A stretch of DNA of 34,226 bases from a virus. The stretch covers positions 1 through 34,226 of the IMG/VR virus record IMGVR_UViG_3300045955_000038; one strand, 5' to 3'. How positions within the stretch are numbered: position 1 is the stretch's first letter; each line of letters begins with the position of its first letter. Shown piece after piece: positions 1,606 to 11,631 of the stretch. Under the pieces are notes generated by a model, which made no database searches, was not told where the DNA came from, and saw only the letters and a list, made by a program, of their open reading frames with translations. Made by a program: the position numbers and the translations under genes.

Positions 1606-2473
1606 CGCGCCGACCGTCCGCCTGGCGGTGGTCGGCGGGGGCGGTGGATTGAACGAGGTGACGAAGCGCGCGCTGGAAGATCCGACGTTGCGCCTGGCGT
1701 GGTTCCACGACATTCCGGCGATCGACACGGCGCTGGAGCACCGAGCCGACAACGTCCCCGCGCTGCTCGTCTCGTTCTACTACCTGGCCGACTTCCTGAC
1801 GCAACGCAAAGACTACGTCTATCGCGATTGGGTGATGGACTCGGGCGCCTTCACCGCCAAGCAAATGCGCGTCGAGATCGACCGGGCGCGCTACATCGAA
1901 ACCTGTCAACGCTTGCTCGCGACGGATCCCAAGCTGGTCGAGGTGTACAGCCTCGACGTGATCGGGGACTGGCGCGCCTCCGTCCGCAACGTCGAGGCGA
2001 TGTGGGCCGCGGGCGTCCCCGCGATCCCCTGCTACCACGTCGGCGATCCGGAACCGCTGCTCAAGGATCTCGTCCGCGACTACGGCAAGGTGGCGCTCGG
2101 CGGCGCGGTGGGCTACAAGAATAAGCGGGCCTGGGCGCAGCAGTGCTTCGCGCGGGTCTGGCCCGCGAAGCTGCACGGGTTCGGGTTCGGCGAAGACCGG
2201 GACATCCTGGCGCTGCCGTGGCACTCGGTCGACGCGACGAACTGGGAGCTGGGGCCGTGTCAGTTCGGGCGGTGGCGCTCGTTCGGCGCGGCGCTGTCGG
2301 TTCGGGGATCGAACCAGAACCTTCGCCCGGAGATCGAGCGGTATCTGCGGGTGGAACAGCAGGCGCGGCGCCGCTGGGCCAAGGAGATGGCGCAGCTCGC
2401 GACGTTGGACGCGCCGACCGTGCGCCTGGTCATCGGATCGTCGCCGCGTCCGCTGCCGCCCCCGCGGGCGTGA
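1598..2473 (+). CDS. dpdA: DpdA-like DNA 7-deazaguanine transglycosylase (TGT-related)
   Basis: A 291-residue protein resembling phage DpdA, the DNA-acting relative of tRNA-guanine transglycosylase, which exchanges guanine in DNA for a 7-deazaguanine base. Visible landmarks follow the TGT barrel: WVMDSGAF with Asp ~81, YSLDVIGD with Asp ~120 (the two candidate catalytic/binding acids), a glycine-rich VALGGAVG segment, then KLHGFGFG and a SVDATNW strand near the C-terminus. The tRNA-type CxCxxC zinc site of bacterial TGT was not seen, which fits a phage DNA enzyme. It starts at GTG 1598 inside the previous gene's end and is followed with overlap by queD, queE and folE, which make its substrate. 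That context strongly supports the call; which base it inserts is not determined. Confidence 0.82.
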   Translation: MDDAPTVRLAVVGGGGGLNEVTKRALEDPTLRLAWFHDIPAIDTALEHRADNVPALLVSFYYLADFLTQRKDYVYRDWVMDSGAFTAKQMRVEIDRARYIETCQRLLATDPKLVEVYSLDVIGDWRASVRNVEAMWAAGVPAIPCYHVGDPEPLLKDLVRDYGKVALGGAVGYKNKRAWAQQCFARVWPAKLHGFGFGEDRDILALPWHSVDATNWELGPCQFGRWRSFGAALSVRGSNQNLRPEIERYLRVEQQARRRWAKEMAQLATLDAPTVRLVIGSSPRPLPPPRA

Positions 2474-2598
2474 CGGAGCCCGAGGCCGACGTCCAGCGGC
2501 GACGGGACCACATCGCGGGCGTGCGGTTCTACCTGGACGTCTCACGCATGATTGCGCGGATGCACGCTCGGACGCTGGCGGACGCGCGGGAGGCCTCG
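2470..2598 (+). other. 43-codon open stretch before queD: extension or separate small peptide
   Basis: A GTG at 2470 forms a GTGA overlap with the dpdA stop and opens a stop-free stretch in the same frame as queD. It encodes about 43 charged, helix-prone residues not found in ordinary QueD enzymes. Either QueD has an N-terminal extension here (172 residues in total), or this segment is mainly a spacer and QueD starts at the ATG at 2599, which has a good GGGAGG ribosome site. The overlap style of the operon favours translation from 2470. Confidence 0.45.
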
Positions 2599-2988
2599 AT
2601 GATCAGGACGGCCAAGCAGTTCCACCTGGAGAAGCGCATTCGCTTCGAGGCGTCCCATCAGCTCGAGGGGCACGACGGCAAGTGTGCGCGCCTGCACGGC
2701 CACTCGTGGCAGGCGGTCATCATCTGCGAAGGGGACGCCGTCTTCGCGTCCGGCCCGAAGATGGGGATGCTCGTCGACTACTCCGACCTGTCGCGCGCCG
2801 CGAAGCCCCTGCTGGAAAACTTCCTGGACCATCACCACCTCAACGACACCTTGCAGCTCAAGCAACCGACGAGCGAGCTGGTGGCGATGTGGATCTACGC
2901 GGAACTGATGAAGCTCGTCCCCGGGCTCACGGCGATCCGCGTCGAGGAAACCTGCACGTCCTCGTGCGAATACCGCCCCGCCCTGTGA
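2599..2988 (+). CDS. queD: 6-carboxy-5,6,7,8-tetrahydropterin synthase (QueD)
   Basis: QueD converts dihydroneopterin triphosphate to 6-carboxytetrahydropterin, the second step of 7-deazaguanine synthesis. From ATG 2599 the protein has 129 residues, the usual family size. Zinc ligands are visible as His20 (FEASH) and His33/His35 in the CARLHGH motif, whose Cys29 is the catalytic nucleophile. LDHHHLND supplies the conserved His region and VEETCTSSCEY the C-terminal substrate-binding Glu. The CxxxHGH spacing is that of QueD. GGGAGG at 2588-2593 precedes this ATG by five bases; an in-frame GTG at 2470 would add 43 residues. It overlaps queE (GTGA) and lies between dpdA and queE. Confidence 0.9.
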   Translation: MIRTAKQFHLEKRIRFEASHQLEGHDGKCARLHGHSWQAVIICEGDAVFASGPKMGMLVDYSDLSRAAKPLLENFLDHHHLNDTLQLKQPTSELVAMWIYAELMKLVPGLTAIRVEETCTSSCEYRPAL

Positions 2989-3689
2989 AGGCGCCCAGCG
3001 CCAGTCTCGTCCGGACCCCGCAGGGCTACGGCGCCGTCGTCCCGCCCTTCACCGCCTGGCCGCTGAACGCGGACAATCGCGTGCGCTACGACCTGGCGGC
3101 GCTCTATCCCACGATCCAAGGCGAAGGGCTCAACGCGGGGCGCGCGATGACGATCGTCCGGCTCCAGGGCTGTCCGGTCGGCTGCATCTGGTGTGACACG
3201 CCAGAGAGCTGGGACCCGTCCCGTCCCCAGCTCGCGCAGCAGCGCGGGGACGCGATCGCGCAGACCGTCGACAATCATGGCCTCGGCTGGGCACTCATCA
3301 CTGGAGGAGAACCGACGTGGCACGACCTGACTTGCCTGACCGTGATGTGTCGCCGACTCGGCATCAAAACGGCGCTGGAGACGTCGGGGACGATGCCGAT
3401 CTCCGGGGAATGGGACTGGGTGACGCTGAGCCCGAAACCGCGGGGCGCGCTCCCGCTGCTGCCGGTCTGGATCTCGATCGCGAGCGAGCTGAAGTGGGTC
3501 GTCGGCAGCGTCCGGGATCTCGAGCGATTGCGTGCGTTCCTGACGGAGTACGACCGGCCGGATCTGCCGGTCCTGATTCAACCGATCTCGGCCAAACCCC
3601 ACACCACCCGACTCTGCGTCGAAGCGGTGATGGACGAGCCCCGATATCGCCTGTCCCTGCAAACGCACAAGATTCTGGACATCGCGTGA
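2985..3689 (+). CDS. queE: 7-carboxy-7-deazaguanine synthase (QueE), radical SAM enzyme
   Basis: QueE rearranges 6-carboxytetrahydropterin to 7-carboxy-7-deazaguanine (CDG) with S-adenosylmethionine and a [4Fe-4S] cluster. The 234-residue protein has the cluster motif CPVGCIWC (Cys63, 67, 70), preceded by YPTIQGEG, a typical QueE entry, and followed by the SAM-binding ITGGEP segment near residue 106. LETSGT and WVTLSPKP are further QueE-like blocks. The GTG at 2985 overlaps the queD stop; the first ~35 residues form an extension before the barrel. Its TGA overlaps the GTG of folE. All residues expected for activity appear present. Confidence 0.9.
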   Translation: MKAPSASLVRTPQGYGAVVPPFTAWPLNADNRVRYDLAALYPTIQGEGLNAGRAMTIVRLQGCPVGCIWCDTPESWDPSRPQLAQQRGDAIAQTVDNHGLGWALITGGEPTWHDLTCLTVMCRRLGIKTALETSGTMPISGEWDWVTLSPKPRGALPLLPVWISIASELKWVVGSVRDLERLRAFLTEYDRPDLPVLIQPISAKPHTTRLCVEAVMDEPRYRLSLQTHKILDIA

Positions 3690-4243
3690 TCGACACGACG
3701 GCGGAGACGATGATTCGCCGCTTCCTGCTCGCGATCGGCGAAGACCCGCGGCGCCCGGGGCTGGTGGAGACACCCGGCCGCGTCGTCCGCGCCTGGCGCG
3801 AGCTGCTGGCGGGCTACGGTCCCCTGCCGCGGATGACGTCGTTTGAGACGAACGTCGACGAAATGGTGATCGTCCGCGGGATCGAGGCGACGTCGATCTG
3901 CGAACATCACCTCCTGCCGTTCACCTGTCGGGTGACGGTCGGCTACTTGCCGGCCGGTCGCGTCCTGGGGCTCTCCAAGATCCCGCGCCTGGTCGAGCAC
4001 TACGCGCGCCGCCTCCAGCTCCAGGAACGCCTGACGCACGAGATCGCGAACGCGATGATCGAGGCCGTCCAGCCCGCGGGCGTCGGCGTGGTGATCACCG
4101 GGAACCATCTGTGCGCGCGCGCCCGCGGGATCAAGGCCACGCAGACCAGCGCCGTCACCTCCGCGATGCTGGGGACGTTTCGCTCCAACGCCTCCGCGCG
4201 CGCCGAGTTCCTGGCGCTGGTCCGGCGTGATCACGAGGAGTAA
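3686..4243 (+). CDS. folE: GTP cyclohydrolase I (FolE)
   Basis: GTP cyclohydrolase I opens GTP to dihydroneopterin triphosphate and formate, the entry step for both folate and 7-deazaguanine synthesis. The 185-residue protein holds the zinc ligands in SICEHHLLPF (Cys and second His) and in HLCARARG (Cys), and the family blocks GLSKIPRLVEHYARRLQLQERLT-type helix and GVGVVITGNH. It starts at GTG 3686 in a GTGA overlap with queE. A phage copy next to queD, queE and dpdA most likely raises the precursor pool for DNA base replacement rather than serving folate synthesis. Confidence 0.92.
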   Translation: MIDTTAETMIRRFLLAIGEDPRRPGLVETPGRVVRAWRELLAGYGPLPRMTSFETNVDEMVIVRGIEATSICEHHLLPFTCRVTVGYLPAGRVLGLSKIPRLVEHYARRLQLQERLTHEIANAMIEAVQPAGVGVVITGNHLCARARGIKATQTSAVTSAMLGTFRSNASARAEFLALVRRDHEE

Positions 4244-4761: not shown

Positions 4762-6437
4762 GGAAGGCGTCCGACCCCATCACGACCTGGGCGCGCCGCG
4801 TCCAGGCGGGCAAGGTCGTCGCCGGACCCCACGTCCGCGCCGCGTGCGCGCGCCATCTGGCCGACCTCGAGCGCCAGGTCCAGCTCGGGATCGTCTGGAA
4901 GCCCCAGACCGCGCGCTGGGCCGTCGCGTTCTTCGCTCACCTGATGCACACCCGGGGCGAGTGGGCGGGCAAGCCCTTCGTCCTGGAACCGTGGCAGGCG
5001 TTCATCATCGGATCGCTCTGGGGCTGGCGGGACGCGACCACGGGCTACCGACGATTCCGAGAAGCCTACGTCGAAGTCCCGCGCAAGAACGGCAAGAGCT
5101 CCATCGCGGCCGGGGTGGCGCTGCTGCTGGCGTTCTTCGACGAGGAGCCCGGGGCGCGCGTCTACTGCGCCGCGACGAAGCGCGACCAGGCCAAGCTCGT
5201 GTGGGATCACGCCAAGGAGATCGCGGGACGCACGCCCGCGTTAGCCAAGCGGATCCACCTGGGCGCGCACACCCTGTCGATCGCCGCCGCGTCCCAAAAG
5301 TTGGAACCGCTCGGCGCCGATACGGACGTCCTCGACGGCCTGGACGTCCACGGCGCGATCGTCGACGAGCTGCACGCGCACCGGACCAGCGCGATGGTCG
5401 ACATCCTGAAGACCGCGACCGTCGCGCGCCGTCAGCCGCTGGTGTTCTACATCACGACCGCGGGCAAGGAACGGAAGACCATCTGCGGCGCGTTCCACGA
5501 CTACGCGCTGCAAGTCCTGACGAGCGCGGACGGGCTCGTCGGCGTCGAGTGGTTTTCGTTCATCGCCTGCGGGGACGACAAAGACGACTGGCGCAAGGAG
5601 TCGACCTGGCGCAAGGCCAATCCCAATTACGGTGTGAGCGTGAGCGCCGCGGCGCTGAAAAAAGACGCCGCGAAGGCCGAGCAGATCCCAGTGAATCAAT
5701 CCGCGTTCCGGCGCTTGCATCTCAACGAGTGGTTGCAGCCCGATAACCGCGCGATCGGGCTCCAGCAGTGGGCCGCGGCCGGACGGGCGGACGTCACGCT
5801 CGACGCCCTGGCCGGACGGCGGTGTTTCGCGGGGCTCGACCTGTCCGCGCGCCTCGACGTGACGGCGCTGGTCCTGGTGTTCGACGACCCGGACGGCGGG
5901 ATCGCGCTGCTGCCCTACTTCTTCATCCCCGAAGACAACATTGCCGCGCGCGTCCAGCGCGACCGCGGGGCGCCGTTCGACGCGTGGGTGGCGGACGGGC
6001 TCGTCGAGGCGACACCCGGCAACCTGATCGACTACCAGGCGATCCGGCGCAAGCTCGTCGAGCTGGGCGCGCTCGTCCAGGTCGACACGGTCGCCACCGA
6101 CCCGTGGAACGCCGCCGCGCTGGGCACCGACATTCGCGCGGACGGGTTCGATCTCGTCGAGGTCCCCCAGCGGATGACGACGTTGTCCGAGCCGACCAAG
6201 CATCTGCTGGCGCTGCTGGAGAGCGGCAAGCTGCGACACCCGAACCACCCGTGCCTGGACTGGATGGCCTCCAACCTGGCGCTATTGATCGACGCCCGGG
6301 GGAACCAGATGCCGGACAAGGGACGATCGACCGGGAGGATCGACGGCCTGGTGGCCGCGATCACCGCGCTGTCCCGCCTGATGCTCGCGCCGACCGGCGA
6401 GTCCGCGTATGCGGATCACGGCCTGGTGACGGTGTGA
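4758..6437 (+). CDS. terminase large subunit (HK97-like TerL)
   Basis: A 559-residue packaging motor with an N-terminal ATPase and a C-terminal nuclease. The Walker A region is VPRKNGKSS (about residue 105-113), the Walker B is AIVDELHA (about residue 200), and FYITTAGKE is the likely coupling motif. The RNase H-like nuclease half contains GLDLSARLDVTAL (about residue 360) and ATDPWNA (about residue 447), with acidic metal-binding positions, and ends in GNQMPDKGRSTGRIDGLVA, a common end of this family. The length is typical for HK97/lambdoid-type TerL. It overlaps the small subunit by four bases. Confidence 0.93.
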   Translation: MRKASDPITTWARRVQAGKVVAGPHVRAACARHLADLERQVQLGIVWKPQTARWAVAFFAHLMHTRGEWAGKPFVLEPWQAFIIGSLWGWRDATTGYRRFREAYVEVPRKNGKSSIAAGVALLLAFFDEEPGARVYCAATKRDQAKLVWDHAKEIAGRTPALAKRIHLGAHTLSIAAASQKLEPLGADTDVLDGLDVHGAIVDELHAHRTSAMVDILKTATVARRQPLVFYITTAGKERKTICGAFHDYALQVLTSADGLVGVEWFSFIACGDDKDDWRKESTWRKANPNYGVSVSAAALKKDAAKAEQIPVNQSAFRRLHLNEWLQPDNRAIGLQQWAAAGRADVTLDALAGRRCFAGLDLSARLDVTALVLVFDDPDGGIALLPYFFIPEDNIAARVQRDRGAPFDAWVADGLVEATPGNLIDYQAIRRKLVELGALVQVDTVATDPWNAAALGTDIRADGFDLVEVPQRMTTLSEPTKHLLALLESGKLRHPNHPCLDWMASNLALLIDARGNQMPDKGRSTGRIDGLVAAITALSRLMLAPTGESAYADHGLVTV

Positions 6438-6444
6438 GGAGCCC

Positions 6445-6618
6445 ATGAGCGACCTGTGGACGGTCCAGGAGCTGGCCGATCGCCTGAAGGTCCACCCCGA
6501 AACGATCCGGAAATGGATCCGCGAAGGCGCGATCACCGCCACCCGGGTGGGGCGCCCGGGGACGGACAAGCCCCGCCTGCGCGTCACCGACAAGGAGGCC
6601 CGGAAGCTCGAGGACTGA
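6445..6618 (+). CDS. small excisionase/MerR-like helix-turn-helix protein
   Basis: A 57-residue protein from ATG 6445, with GAGG just upstream at the terL stop. The sequence reads DLWTVQELADRLKVHPETIRKWIREG, a textbook helix-turn-helix of the HTH_17/excisionase type, followed by a short wing with GRPGTDKPRLRV and an acidic end. It would bind DNA as a small regulator or as a recombination directionality factor. Its position between terL and portal is unusual. It is followed by a 91-base gap holding repeats, which could be its target. Confidence 0.8.
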   Translation: MSDLWTVQELADRLKVHPETIRKWIREGAITATRVGRPGTDKPRLRVTDKEARKLED

Positions 6619-6709
6619 CACCACGGAATACAACGCAATACAACGGAACACCATTCTCTGGAAGAACCCCGTTGTTCTGAGCCCGTCGTCCCGGTAAGCA
6701 CAATGCTCG
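6619..6709 (+). promoter_or_regulatory. A/T-rich gap with direct and inverted repeats before the portal gene
   Basis: This is one of the few gaps in the structural operon. AATACAACG occurs twice (6627-6635 and 6637-6645). AGAAC and GTTCT-type arms around CCCCGTT form a small inverted repeat near 6663-6678. No good -35/-10 pair was seen. It may carry a binding site for the HTH protein encoded just upstream, or a promoter or processing site for the head genes. Confidence 0.35.
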
Positions 6710-7933
6710 ATGTGGGACTGGTGGTCGCGCTGGTGGGCCGCGTTCGTCAGCGCCGTGCGCGGCCAGCTCGATGATCCCGACCCCTCGACCGTCTGGGCGT
6801 GGTCTTCCCAACCCTCCATCGGCGGCTACGACCGGATCTACCGCTGTCAGCCCCACGTCTGGACGGTCGTCAACTTCATCGCCATCAATCTCGGCCAGAT
6901 CGGGATCAAGGTGTACCGGCGCCGCTCGAATGACGATCGCGTCGAGGTCCACGATCATCCCCTGGCCGTCCTGCTCCGTCAGCCCAACCCGGCGACGACG
7001 CGCTACCGCTTCATCACCGAGCTGGTCACGGATTTCTGCGTCGACGGGGTCGCCTACGCGCTGAAACTCCATCCCCCGGACGGGGGCCTGGAGCTCTACC
7101 GGATCGACCCGGCGACGATCACCCCATCGGGCGACGTCATCCCGCGCGAGTTCGTGTGGCGCCCCGTGTCGGGCGAGCACACCATCACCCTCCCGCCGAG
7201 CGAAGTCCTGTATCTGCGCCAGCCGCGGATGATCTCGCCGCTGGAACCGCTCCGGACGCTGCTGATGGAAGACCAGGCGGGGACGGAATACCGCTCGCGC
7301 TTCTGGCGCAACTTCGCGCGCCTGGGCGGCGTGATCCATCGTCCGGCCGGGGCGTCACGCTGGACGCCCGACCAGCGAAAGATGTTCCGCAAGCAGTGGC
7401 GCCAGTACCAAGGCCCCGAGGGATCGGGCAAGACCGTCGTCCTGGAAGACGGGATGACCTACAGCCCGATCTCCGCGACGGCCGAGCAATCGCAGTACGT
7501 CCAGAGCCGCAAGCTGACGCGCGAAGAAGTCTCGGCGGCGTTTCACGTCCCGCCCGCGCTCGTCGGCATCGTCGAGTCGCAGGGCTACGGCTCGATCCGC
7601 GAACAGCACAAGGCGCTCTACCAGGACACCCTGGGTCCCTACGTCGCGATGCTGGAGGGCGAATTCCAGCTCCAGCTCCTGCCCGAGTTCTCGGACAGCG
7701 AAGAGGTCTACGTGGAATTCAACATCGATGAAAAGCTGCAAGGCTCGTTCGAGGATTCCGTCCTGGCGCTCGCGTCGTCGACCGGAACGCCCTACGTCAG
7801 CGTCAACGAAGCGCGCGCGCGCTTGAACCTGCCCAAGATCGCGGACCCCGCCTATGACAAGCCCGTCCTGCGCCTGGACACGGCGCCCGGGCAGATGCAG
7901 CGGACCGCCCAACGGAACGGAGTACCGGCGTGA
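6710..7933 (+). CDS. portal protein (HK97 family)
   Basis: A 407-residue portal, the dodecameric ring at the capsid vertex through which DNA enters and leaves. Recognisable blocks are QPHVWTVVNFIAINLGQI near the N-terminus, DHPLAVLLRQPNP, the tunnel-region LKLHPPDGGLELYRIDP, and SRKLTREEVSAAFHVPPALVG followed by GYGSIREQHKALYQDTLGP, highly typical of HK97-type portals. It starts at ATG 6710 after the repeat-bearing gap. Its stop overlaps the GTG start of the first capsid gene. The length is normal for the family. Confidence 0.93.
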   Translation: MWDWWSRWWAAFVSAVRGQLDDPDPSTVWAWSSQPSIGGYDRIYRCQPHVWTVVNFIAINLGQIGIKVYRRRSNDDRVEVHDHPLAVLLRQPNPATTRYRFITELVTDFCVDGVAYALKLHPPDGGLELYRIDPATITPSGDVIPREFVWRPVSGEHTITLPPSEVLYLRQPRMISPLEPLRTLLMEDQAGTEYRSRFWRNFARLGGVIHRPAGASRWTPDQRKMFRKQWRQYQGPEGSGKTVVLEDGMTYSPISATAEQSQYVQSRKLTREEVSAAFHVPPALVGIVESQGYGSIREQHKALYQDTLGPYVAMLEGEFQLQLLPEFSDSEEVYVEFNIDEKLQGSFEDSVLALASSTGTPYVSVNEARARLNLPKIADPAYDKPVLRLDTAPGQMQRTAQRNGVPA

Positions 7934-8919
7934 AGACTGACGAGCTGCTGGACCAGATCCTCGATCCCACCGCCCGGCTCGATCCGCGACGGGGCGGGAT
8001 CCTGCCGCTATTCGGTCCCCAGGCGCTCCAGCTCGGGCAGGGGTTCGTCGACGCCGACGCCGTGCGCGCGGCGATCGCCACCCGGAGCGGGCGCTGGCAC
8101 TCCCCCGCCGTCGAGCTCGAGGCGCTGGTCGGCGTCACGTCCCCGCCGATCCCGCCCGGGGTGGCCGTCCCGCCCCCGATCGTCAGCCCCTTCGCCTACG
8201 CCGCAGGGCGCTTCGCGCAAGGCACGACGAGCGCGGGCGCGATCCCGTACCTGCGCGAGTCCGCGCGCGTCAACGCCGCGACCTACGTCGCCGCGGGCGC
8301 CGCGAAGCCAGAGAGCGATAACGATTTCACGCTGGCGACTCAGCCCGTCGTCAAACTGGCGCACTGGCTGGCGGTCCCCGACGAGTTTCTGGACGACGCG
8401 CCCGGGCTGGCGACGTATCTGGACACGAACCTGACGGTCGGGCTCCTCAGCGTCCTCGATCACGAGGCGTTACAGGGCGACGGCGCGGCCGGACATCTCC
8501 AGGGGCTCATCGGCCTGGCGGGCAAGACCCCACCCGTCAACGCCACGGGCGGCGCGACCGGCAACGTGTCCGCGATCATGACCGCGATTGCGAACGTCTG
8601 GACAGGCTCCCGCCGTCGTCCGGACACCGTCGTGATCAATCCCGCGACCTACGCGCTGGTCGCCCCCGGCGTCCCGGTCGCGCCGCTGACGGCGCCGATC
8701 GAGTTCGTCTTCACGCCGGAGATGCCGACCGGACAGGCGCTCGTCGGCGCGTTCGGGACGGGCGGGATGCTGTTCCGTCGCGGGGGCGTCGTCGTCCAGG
8801 CGACCAACAGCCACGCCGACTATTTCCGCAAGAACCTCACCGCGATCCGCGCCGAGCTGCGCGTGGCCCTGGTCTACTTCGTCCCCGCGGCGTTCTGCCT
8901 GGTCACGGGGATCGCGTGA
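7930..8919 (+). CDS. HK97-fold major capsid protein paralog, lacking a delta domain
   Basis: A 329-residue HK97-fold capsid protein starting at GTG 7930. From about residue 23 it aligns with the second capsid protein at 9719-10981: GGILPLFGPQALQLG against GGVLPLINGDRLSLG, then PPGVAVPPPIV, RFAQGTTSAGAIPYL, AAKPES, VPDEFLDD and a C-terminal LFRRGGVVVQATN plus IRAELRVALVYFVPAAFCLVTG. It lacks the long charged coiled-coil scaffold (delta) domain of its paralog, so it begins almost where a processed capsid protein would. It may form a minor or vertex subunit, or be a diverged second shell protein. It is encoded between portal and protease. Confidence 0.88.
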   Translation: MKTDELLDQILDPTARLDPRRGGILPLFGPQALQLGQGFVDADAVRAAIATRSGRWHSPAVELEALVGVTSPPIPPGVAVPPPIVSPFAYAAGRFAQGTTSAGAIPYLRESARVNAATYVAAGAAKPESDNDFTLATQPVVKLAHWLAVPDEFLDDAPGLATYLDTNLTVGLLSVLDHEALQGDGAAGHLQGLIGLAGKTPPVNATGGATGNVSAIMTAIANVWTGSRRRPDTVVINPATYALVAPGVPVAPLTAPIEFVFTPEMPTGQALVGAFGTGGMLFRRGGVVVQATNSHADYFRKNLTAIRAELRVALVYFVPAAFCLVTGIA

Positions 8920-9704
8920 TGAAGGCGCGCGCCTCCGAGCTGGAGCTGCTGATTAGCGCGGGGCTCGCGCTGCCGCGCCAGGTCGTCCTGCCGTCCGGCC
9001 CGACCGGGTACGTGGACCCGGCGCCCCGCCTCGAGCTGGTCGCGTCCGCAGCGGACGACGTCGCGCACCTGTACCTCTACGGGTCGATCGGGGGGTGGTT
9101 CGGCAAGAGTAGCGAAGACGTCATCGCCGAGCTGCGCGCGATCAAGAGCCCCAAGCTCCGCGTGCACATCAATTCCAAGGGCGGCGACGTCTTCGAAGGG
9201 CTCGCGATCTACAACACCCTGCGCGAGTTCCCCGGTCAGGTGGAGACGCGCGTCGAGAGCCTGGCGGCGTCGATCGCCTCGATCATCGCGCTGGCCGGGG
9301 AGCCCGTCACGATGCACGCGGCCTCGATGATGATGATTCACGATCCGCTGGCCGTCGCCTACGGGCACGCCGACGATATGCGGAAGATGGCCCGCCTGCT
9401 CGACAAGGCGGCGGGCGTCCTCACCGACGTCTACGTCAAGAAAAGCGGCCTGCCGCGGACGATGATCCGCGACTGGATGCTGGAAGAACGCTGGTTCACG
9501 CCGGTCGAAGCGCGGGACGCCAAGCTGGTCACCAACGTCCTGGACGAGCCCGAGCGCGAACCCGTCCCCGATCCCGGTCCGGCGCCCAACCCGGAGCCCA
9601 CACCCGAACCCGACCCAGAGCCTCAGCCCGCGCCCGCTCAATCCACGACGCGGCGGCGACTCGCTGCCCGCATGGTCACGGCCTATAGCCACCTCGTGAG
9701 CTGA
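8916..9704 (+). CDS. prohead maturation protease (ClpP/S14-like)
   Basis: A 262-residue ClpP-like serine protease that would cut the scaffold domain from capsid subunits during head maturation. The catalytic Ser is in SLAASIAS (Ser ~119), the His in MMMIHDPL (His ~142), with a typical phage-type WFTPVEARDAKLV segment downstream. HINSKGGDVFEGLAIYNTL is the conserved ClpP strand-helix. The C-terminus, after residue ~205, is a Pro-, Glu- and Asp-rich repeat tail, likely a flexible scaffold or targeting region. It starts at GTG 8916, overlapping the first capsid gene, and precedes the delta-domain capsid protein, its likely substrate. Confidence 0.9.
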   Translation: MMKARASELELLISAGLALPRQVVLPSGPTGYVDPAPRLELVASAADDVAHLYLYGSIGGWFGKSSEDVIAELRAIKSPKLRVHINSKGGDVFEGLAIYNTLREFPGQVETRVESLAASIASIIALAGEPVTMHAASMMMIHDPLAVAYGHADDMRKMARLLDKAAGVLTDVYVKKSGLPRTMIRDWMLEERWFTPVEARDAKLVTNVLDEPEREPVPDPGPAPNPEPTPEPDPEPQPAPAQSTTRRRLAARMVTAYSHLVS

Positions 9705-9718
9705 GAGAGGAGACGACG

Positions 9719-10981
9719 ATGGTCAAAACGATCCTGGACGAGATGCGAGAGGCCCACGAGCGGATGCGCGCGCTGGTCGCGACCGCGGAGGGGGACGATC
9801 GGGATCTGACGCCCGACGAAGACAAGGAGTTCAAGGCGCTCGACGAGCGGCTCAAGACGTTGGACGCCAAGCGCAAGCGCGCGGACGGCTTCGCCAGCGC
9901 GCTGAAGACCGTCGAGGGCTACTTCGCCCCCGGCAACGGTAACGGCGCCGCGAAACCGTCCCCCGTCGCGACCCGAGACACCGCCGTGCGCTCGATGATG
10001 GGCGGCGTCCTGCCGCTGATCAATGGCGACCGGCTCTCGCTCGGGTCGAAGTTCGTCGAGAACGAACAGATCCGGACGCTGCTGGGCCAGCCGCGGCAAG
10101 GCCAGTGGACGTCCCCGCCCATCGAGATCGATGCCGCGGTCACGATCACGCCGACGACGGCGATTCCGCCCGGCGTCATCGTGGTCCCACCGCCGCCCGT
10201 CTACCCGTGGGACCTGGTGTCGACGCGGTTCGGGCAAGGGACGACCGAAGCGGGCTCGATCCCGTATCTGCAAGAGACGAGCTTCACCAACGCGGCCGAC
10301 TATGTCGCGGTCGGCGCGGCCAAGCCCGAAAGCGCCAAGGTGTTCACGCTGGCGTCGGCCACGCTGCTGAAGATCGCGCACATCATCAAGGTGCCGGACG
10401 AGTTCCTGGACGATATCCCGGCGCTGCGCGCGTACATCGACGCCAACATGGTCGGCGGTCTGATCGAGAAGCTGGAAACCGAGGTCGTCGGTGGTGTGGG
10501 CGGCGCGGGCAAGATCCAAGGCCTGCTCACGCTCCCCGGCAAGCACGCCGACGTCGACTACACCGCGGGACCGTACATCCAGACGATCGCCGCCGCCTGG
10601 GCCGCGATCTGGACGGCGTCGAAGTATCGGCCCGAGACGATCGTCCTGTCCCCGACGACCTACCAGACGGTGACGATGCAGAGCAATTCGCAGGGCGCGC
10701 CCTACTTCCCGAATCCCTGGTCCCCGGGGACGCAACCGCTCTACGGGATGACGCCCGTGATCTCGCCGCAAGTCCCGGATGGGACCGCGATCATCGGCAA
10801 TTTCCCGGTCGGCGGCATGTTGTTCCGCAAGGGTGGGATCTCGCTCCAGGCGACGAACACCGACGTGGACGACTTCCAGAAGAACATCACCACCATCCGC
10901 GCCGAGATGCGGGTGGCCCTGGTGTACTGGGTTCCCGGCGCGTTCGGCCTGGTGACGGGACTGGAGCCCGCGGGTCCGTAG
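9719..10981 (+). CDS. major capsid protein (HK97 family) with N-terminal delta domain
   Basis: A 420-residue HK97-type capsid precursor. Residues 1-75 are a charged coiled coil (RMRALVATAEGDDRDLTPDE and following), the delta scaffold domain normally removed by the prohead protease. A Gly/Asn/Ala-rich linker follows at residues ~76-85, a plausible cleavage region. The HK97 core then runs from about residue 95, with QGTTEAGSIPYLQET (E-loop region), VPDEFLDDIPAL and IRAEMRVALVYWVPGAFGLVTG at the end. AGAGGAG at 9706-9712 is the strongest ribosome site in this region, suiting a highly made protein. It is a clear paralog of the protein at 7930-8919. Confidence 0.93.
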   Translation: MVKTILDEMREAHERMRALVATAEGDDRDLTPDEDKEFKALDERLKTLDAKRKRADGFASALKTVEGYFAPGNGNGAAKPSPVATRDTAVRSMMGGVLPLINGDRLSLGSKFVENEQIRTLLGQPRQGQWTSPPIEIDAAVTITPTTAIPPGVIVVPPPPVYPWDLVSTRFGQGTTEAGSIPYLQETSFTNAADYVAVGAAKPESAKVFTLASATLLKIAHIIKVPDEFLDDIPALRAYIDANMVGGLIEKLETEVVGGVGGAGKIQGLLTLPGKHADVDYTAGPYIQTIAAAWAAIWTASKYRPETIVLSPTTYQTVTMQSNSQGAPYFPNPWSPGTQPLYGMTPVISPQVPDGTAIIGNFPVGGMLFRKGGISLQATNTDVDDFQKNITTIRAEMRVALVYWVPGAFGLVTGLEPAGP

Positions 10982-11631
10982 TGACGCCGCGGAATTGGTT
11001 CGCGTATTGCGGATGCGGCTGCGGGGACCCGTGGTCGCACTGGGAGAACGCTGAGGACGGCACGGCCGGGTCTGCGGGCTCGGTCGTGCCCGATCCCTCG
11101 GTGTCGATCACTGAGCCGATCGGGCTCGACGAAGCGAAGCTCCACTGCAAAGTGGACGTGACCGACGATGACGCGCTGCTGACAAACGCGTGGATTCCCG
11201 CGGCGCGCCTCAAGGTCGAGACGGACTGCGAACGCGCGTTCGCGGTCCAGGGCTACATCGGGACCTGGGGGATGGTGGCCACCACCCTGCCGCTCGAGCT
11301 GCGCCCGCCCCCGATCAATACCGTCACCAAGGTCGAGAAACTGCCCGGGGATGGGTCGGCGAATGTCGAGCTGACGGGTTGGCGGCTGGACGCACCGACC
11401 GCACTGCTCTATCCGCCGCCCGAAGGCTGGCCGACCCTCCCCGATCAGATCCGCGTGACGTACACGTCCGGCGCCGACGACGTTGACGGGCGCGCGCGCG
11501 CGGCCATGCTGCTGGTGATCGGCGAGCTCTACGACCATCGCGCCGCGATCGTGACCATCCCGACGATGCCGCTCCCGCTGGGCTACGAGTTCCTGATCAG
11601 CGGGCTCCGCAACTCCACCGGGGTCGTCTGA
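10981..11631 (+). CDS. head-tail connector protein (gp6/phiE125 gp8-like)
   Basis: A 216-residue protein starting at GTG 10981, one base into the capsid stop. After a Cys-rich, Gly-rich N-terminus (YCGCGCGDP), it follows the head-tail connector pattern: EPIGLDEAKLHCKVD, then LLTNAWIPAARLKVETDCERAF, LPLELRPPPINTV and a C-terminal ARAAMLLVIGELYDHR helix. Such proteins form the adaptor ring below the portal. The extra Cys-rich N-terminal ~35 residues are not usual for the family and might bind metal. Confidence 0.85.
   Translation: MTPRNWFAYCGCGCGDPWSHWENAEDGTAGSAGSVVPDPSVSITEPIGLDEAKLHCKVDVTDDDALLTNAWIPAARLKVETDCERAFAVQGYIGTWGMVATTLPLELRPPPINTVTKVEKLPGDGSANVELTGWRLDAPTALLYPPPEGWPTLPDQIRVTYTSGADDVDGRARAAMLLVIGELYDHRAAIVTIPTMPLPLGYEFLISGLRNSTGVV

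Follow-up and report, generated by a model that had tools for sequence, protein, structure and literature searches.

The head operon of the virus analysed here raises the question of why a phage would encode two HK97-type capsid proteins, only one of which carries a coiled-coil scaffold. The stretch of DNA that was studied, referred to as the window, is a complete virus record of 34,226 bases. It contains terminase, portal, protease, full capsid protein (MCP), connector, and tail genes, and its head operon has the order small terminase, large terminase, portal, short capsid, protease, full capsid, and connector. The genes from the portal to the connector are as follows.

6710–7933, + strand: portal protein (PF04860, E 7e-73), ending in a stop codon that overlaps the short capsid start
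7930–8919, + strand: short capsid paralogue of 329 residues, proposed penton (vertex) protein (PF05065, E 1e-27)
8916–9704, + strand: ClpP-related head maturation protease of 262 residues (PF00574, E 7e-27)
9719–10981, + strand: MCP with fused delta scaffold, 420 residues, proposed hexon protein (PF05065, E 7e-25)
10981–11631, + strand: head–tail connector, the next gene of the head operon (PF05135, phrog_442/phrog_40)

The reading frames from the portal through the protease overlap tightly. The short capsid gene has a GTG start, which lies across the portal stop, and the protease, which also matches NCBIfam NF045542 above its cut-off, has an alternative ATG start at 8919. The MCP gene is preceded by a strong ribosome-binding site of its own. 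The C-terminus of the protease (9549–9650) forms a Pro/Glu/Asp-rich, repeat-like tail, and proline-rich tails occur at the same place in the related loci L005 and L008. Outside the head operon, the window contains a ParB-like domain at 25–609 and, just 5' of the small terminase gene (2143–4240), genes for QueD-like (PTPS), QueE-like radical SAM, and GTP cyclohydrolase I (FolE) proteins, a combination that suggests a 7-deazaguanine (preQ0-type) DNA modification pathway.

The two capsid proteins that flank the protease are paralogues, as had been predicted. Both belong to the Phage_capsid family PF05065 (97.6 bits for the short protein and 88.4 for the MCP, with a cut-off of 24.2), and they are 45% identical across 328 residues. 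The E value of 5e-78, together with the conservation of the pair in relatives, excludes chance or an artefact as its source. Their models share the HK97 fold, with VIA Z scores against HK97 prohead I chain 8fqk_D of 23.2 (rmsd 2.4) for the short protein and 24.9 (rmsd 2.1) for the MCP. Other identities for the short protein were rejected. It is not an encapsulin, since it scores 67.7 bits against NF041188, for which the cut-off is 180, and its gene sits between the portal and the protease. It does not belong to the T4 gp23/gp24 sequence family, since PF05065 was the only family reported for it and a PDB profile search returned HK97-type chains. A satellite capsid-redirecting protein was also excluded, because the window has its own terminase, portal, protease, MCP, and connector genes. 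The short protein has two marks of a vertex paralogue: descent from the MCP, by a duplication inside the lineage (support 100/100), and a shorter N-terminal pro-region, with 95 residues before the common core as opposed to 171 in the MCP.

The difference between the N-termini was resolved with AlphaFold models built on alignments of the loci found in this analysis (pLDDT 85.1 for the short protein and 83.4 for the MCP). The parts of the two proteins that correspond to the HK97 scaffold are the following.

9731–9922, + strand: coiled-coil scaffold tower of the MCP (residues 5–68), equivalent to HK97 residues 2–66 in the AlphaFold model and absent from the short capsid protein
10037–10129, + strand: helix-turn-strand scaffold segment of the MCP (residues 107–137), from the alignment of model residues 107–416 with residues 76–383 of 8fqk_D
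8029–8118, + strand: kept scaffold segment of the short capsid protein (residues 34–63), equivalent to HK97 residues 76–103 in the model alignment

The MCP model begins with long helices at residues 5–25 and 32–68, in a block with pLDDT 87–97 up to residue 60. After the hairpin come a linker that is disordered, a region of two short helices and one strand (108–137), and the HK97 core. The original prediction had placed a coiled-coil scaffold in the 420-residue protein only, and the models agree, since the 329-residue model has no such hairpin. The short protein begins near the end of the linker, with helices at 35–41 and 43–50 and a strand at 61–63, and continues into the same core as the MCP. 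In VIA comparisons, residues 34–329 of the short protein aligned with residues 76–383 of 8fqk_D, the same HK97 range that was covered by MCP residues 107–416. The short copy as modelled is therefore a protein without tower and linker that has kept the segment equivalent to HK97 residues 76–103. In the published HK97 structure, residues 2–66 form coiled-coil trimers, or towers, with two towers to a hexon and ten around the portal; residues 76–103, the C-terminal part of the delta domain, form a helix-turn-strand that lines the inner face of each subunit (PMC10275583).

The short protein had also been suggested to resemble a pre-processed capsid protein, and this did not hold. It retains the scaffold segment and about 62–66 residues upstream of the mapped HK97 103/104 cleavage site, and the presence of this segment and of the cleavage-site region rules out a simple pre-processed form. 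The first residue behind the HK97 cut, 104, aligns with residue 66 of the short protein, or with about 62 if the structural offset is used, where confidence in the model is low (66–74). On this alignment, the short protein may well be cleaved near residues 62–66.

The core of the short protein differs from that of the MCP in one segment and retains the HK97 cross-linking residues, at the positions listed here.

8650–8748, + strand: shortened A-domain segment of the short capsid protein (residues 241–273), 33 residues as opposed to 46 in the MCP, from the length survey
8305–8307, + strand: K126 of the short capsid protein, equivalent to the cross-linking K169 of HK97 in the alignment with HK97 gp5
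8833–8856, + strand: N302 and E309 of the short capsid protein, equivalent to HK97 N356 and E363 in the same alignment
10322–10324, + strand: K202 of the MCP, equivalent to HK97 K169 in the alignment with HK97 gp5
10883–10906, + strand: N389 and E396 of the MCP, equivalent to HK97 N356 and E363 in the same alignment

The length survey covered 47 capsid proteins, 41 MCPs and six short copies. The segment matching HK97 residues 282–327, which lies in the A domain that packs round the capsomer axis, has 32–38 residues in all six short copies, whereas it has at least 46 in 40 of the 41 MCPs, the exception being the L008 MCP with 40. The five complete short copies have 73–95 residues before the core, and their partner MCPs 158–176. 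In the HK97 cross-link, K169 is bonded to N356 of a different subunit (PMC5701804), and the equivalents of both residues are present in six of six short copies. Lysine and asparagine are both present in 33 of the 41 MCPs and both absent from the other eight (Fisher p 1e-8, a value inflated by sequence relatedness). This joint retention or loss means that the pair of residues reports on function and that its presence is informative; the short protein thus seems capable of covalent incorporation into an HK97-style shell. The equivalent of E363 is kept in the short copies of group I and replaced by alanine in those of group II (L017, L015, and L054). The eight capsid proteins that have jointly lost the lysine and asparagine (L034, L031, L026, L039, L040, L042, L043, and L044) all have glycine in place of the asparagine, and some of them are closely related to cross-link-competent ones.

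Relatives of the window were sought in 2.9 million viral contigs. Group I consists of three lineages, the window, L005, in which the short gene is cut by the contig end, and L008. L001 and L004, which share 10,156 bases with the window at 100% identity, were not counted as independent evidence, and L006, which begins inside the MCP, was left out of the short-gene counts. Wherever this region can be seen in group I, in three lineages, the short capsid gene lies directly before the protease. Group I orthologues are 52–59% identical in amino acid sequence for the short protein, 50–55% for the protease, and 64–65% for the MCP, and most changes are at third codon positions. Judged by this pattern, the short copy is under purifying selection, with a constraint close to that on the protease and MCP. 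The possibility that one copy is decaying or absent in close relatives, which would have spoken against the original prediction, was examined and failed, as L005 and L008 both keep the short gene; the open frames and the third-position-biased divergence in three lineages rule out decay.

Group II comprises short copies in L017, L015, L054 (identical to L055 in this region), and, in part, L073. The three complete ones are 46–73% identical to each other. Their genes are located directly 3' of the portal (L017 and L073), as in the window and L008, or directly 3' of the MCP (L015 and L054). Outside the two groups, related loci that include the capsid region carry a single capsid gene. The ribosome-binding site of the short gene is weaker than that of the MCP in group I and L017 and stronger in L015 and L054; this inconsistency between the groups makes the strength of ribosome binding an unreliable guide to copy number. 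Two oddities were seen among the related loci. The connector reading frame of L015 (6937–7728) contains SHRDYFARNLTTVRA, which resembles the P-domain motif of capsid proteins and looks like an inserted fragment of a capsid gene. In L051, a Rathayibacter contig, the capsid homology at 5442–6761 is split over two overlapping frames, as by a capsid frameshift in a prophage.

In a tree of the 47 capsid proteins, the short proteins and MCPs of group I cluster together with a support of 100/100, and the duplication therefore occurred within that lineage. The group II MCPs are placed elsewhere, among single-capsid phages. A single origin of all short copies was rejected (AU p=0.0004 for the one-clade tree) after the columns of the trait itself, the N-terminus and the shortened A-domain segment, had been removed from the alignment. 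The case that the tower-less short copy arose at least twice independently is strong but not absolute, as long branches are present. Holding the group I short copies together, apart from the MCPs, gave an AU p of 0.28, and in this group the branches of the short copy are somewhat longer than those of the MCP. Both groups changed the same two features: the N-terminus is too short for the coiled coil and the A-domain segment is reduced.

The gene order portal, short capsid, protease, full capsid had been called unusual, and comparison bears this out, since HK97 and Microbacterium phage Gack have portal, protease, and a single MCP. The short protein matches 788 GenBank phage records and the MCP 711, each record at one place, and the same holds for the 264 and 207 GenBank phage records matched by two group II short proteins. 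One PLSDB plasmid record, a 4.1-Mb Proteus record, has two match places, which are match places only. No complete pair was found in 296 genomes of one bacterial phylum; the two match pieces in G051 fall in one frame of 348 residues. A description of duplicated HK97 capsid genes in one HK97-type operon was not found in the searched literature, whose scope left out most subscription journals. In this survey, no phages other than those of groups I and II emerged as candidates for having a separate penton protein within an HK97-type head operon.

Known systems offer partial parallels. The closest solved folds are the capsid proteins of HK97 (gp5), D3, and phiXacJX1, which have the same fused delta design as the window MCP. 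HK97 shares its cross-link residues with the window proteins and, unlike the window, uses one capsid protein for hexons and pentons. The Ccm protein of SaPIbov5 is a homologue of the capsid protein CP with a delta domain of 87 residues as opposed to 128, and cryo-EM of procapsids showed that pentamers consist of Ccm and hexamers of CP (PMC8569155). Ccm and the CP of phage phi12 thus resemble the window pair in that a second HK97-type capsid protein has a shorter delta domain than the main one. In contrast to the window, Ccm is encoded by a satellite that parasitises a helper phage, retains a cleaved 87-residue delta domain, and is 24% identical to CP, whereas the window pair belongs to the phage's own head operon, is 45% identical, and includes a short copy without any coiled coil. 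T4 gp24, a paralogue of gp23, occupies the vertices (PMC5694885). As in the window, the MCP paralogue of T4 is encoded by the same phage. The cleaved propeptide of gp24 is much shorter than that of gp23. T4 differs in its separate scaffold protein and T4-type protease, whereas the window has a scaffold fused to an HK97/PF05065-type MCP and a ClpP-type protease.

With modest confidence, we favour the reading that the 329-residue protein descends from the MCP and serves solely as the penton (vertex) subunit, and that the 420-residue protein forms the hexons and provides the scaffold. The analogy to T4 gp24 and gp23 drawn in the original prediction stands as the best explanation of the pair, with Ccm as a precedent in pentamers; the vertex reading is plausible, though unproven, and better grounded than when first proposed. 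The coiled coils of the MCP would form trimeric towers, two per hexon, and grip the portal at the portal vertex, as in HK97. The five subunits of a penton do not divide into trimers, and a subunit specialised for this position can therefore do without the tower; because it has no tower, the short subunit should be excluded from the hexons that contact the portal. The MCP would thus build the hexons and bear the scaffold, and the short protein would fill the pentons. Once the shell is assembled, the protease would remove the delta domain of the MCP, and perhaps also a short pro-segment from the penton protein; HK97-style cross-linking of the whole shell, with its pentons, would follow. The wider proposal, that phages with a scaffold fused to the capsid protein have at least twice evolved a tower-less paralogue specialised as a penton, could equally well prove right or wrong.

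Several points count against a dedicated penton. HK97 shows that a penton need not be tower-less, since it makes both types of capsomer from a single protein with a tower, and ribosome-binding strengths, as read from the genes, do not consistently predict a lower expression of the short copy. By analogy, the two-component family 2B encapsulin of Streptomyces lydicus is a further argument, since its two HK97-fold paralogues mix irregularly (PMC12407261). It resembles the window pair in the co-assembly of paralogous shell proteins and differs in being a cellular compartment without portal, protease, or scaffold. Irregular co-assembly is the main rival to the penton reading, possible and on balance unlikely: both proteins would enter the same capsomers without fixed positions, and the tower-less copy would thin out the scaffold and in this way create space or adjust curvature. 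The HK97 core and the cross-link residues kept in both copies would suit such a shell. The solved phage and satellite precedents that we found, T4 gp24 and Ccm, are all vertex-specific, however, and the A-domain segment is consistently shortened in two independent groups, which suggests a different capsomer geometry.

The short copy might instead regulate head size or shape, acting on size or on initiation beside the portal, possibly in sub-stoichiometric amounts, as a self-encoded counterpart of Ccm. Ccm redirects assembly from prolate to isometric heads by taking over the pentamers (PMC8569155), and in the window, L008, L017, and L073 the short gene directly follows the portal. We consider this improbable, as the gene follows the MCP in L015 and L054, so that adjacency to the portal is not essential, and the short copy lacks the tower, the part that contacts the portal in HK97. 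Some bacterial defence systems recognise capsid proteins, and a role outside the virion, for example as a decoy for such defences, can be imagined. Nothing more direct speaks for it, and a place in the head operon, the kept scaffold segment, and the cross-link residues fit a shell component, which makes a decoy very improbable. The somewhat longer branches of the group I short copies are what a redundant or decaying duplicate might show; such an origin is scarcely credible in view of the open frame, the protease-like constraint in three lineages that are 52–59% identical, and a second origin with the same changes.

If the dedicated-penton reading is true, the HK97 scaffold would consist of two separable parts, one lining the capsomer and needed by all subunits, the other a trimeric tower needed by hexons only. 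The textbook example of a capsid that assembles with a fused scaffold is HK97, and it is still an open question how a single scaffold can work at six-fold, five-fold, and portal positions. The phages of groups I and II seem to have separated the parts of this scaffold onto two proteins, twice, and would thus constitute a natural experiment on what each capsomer needs.
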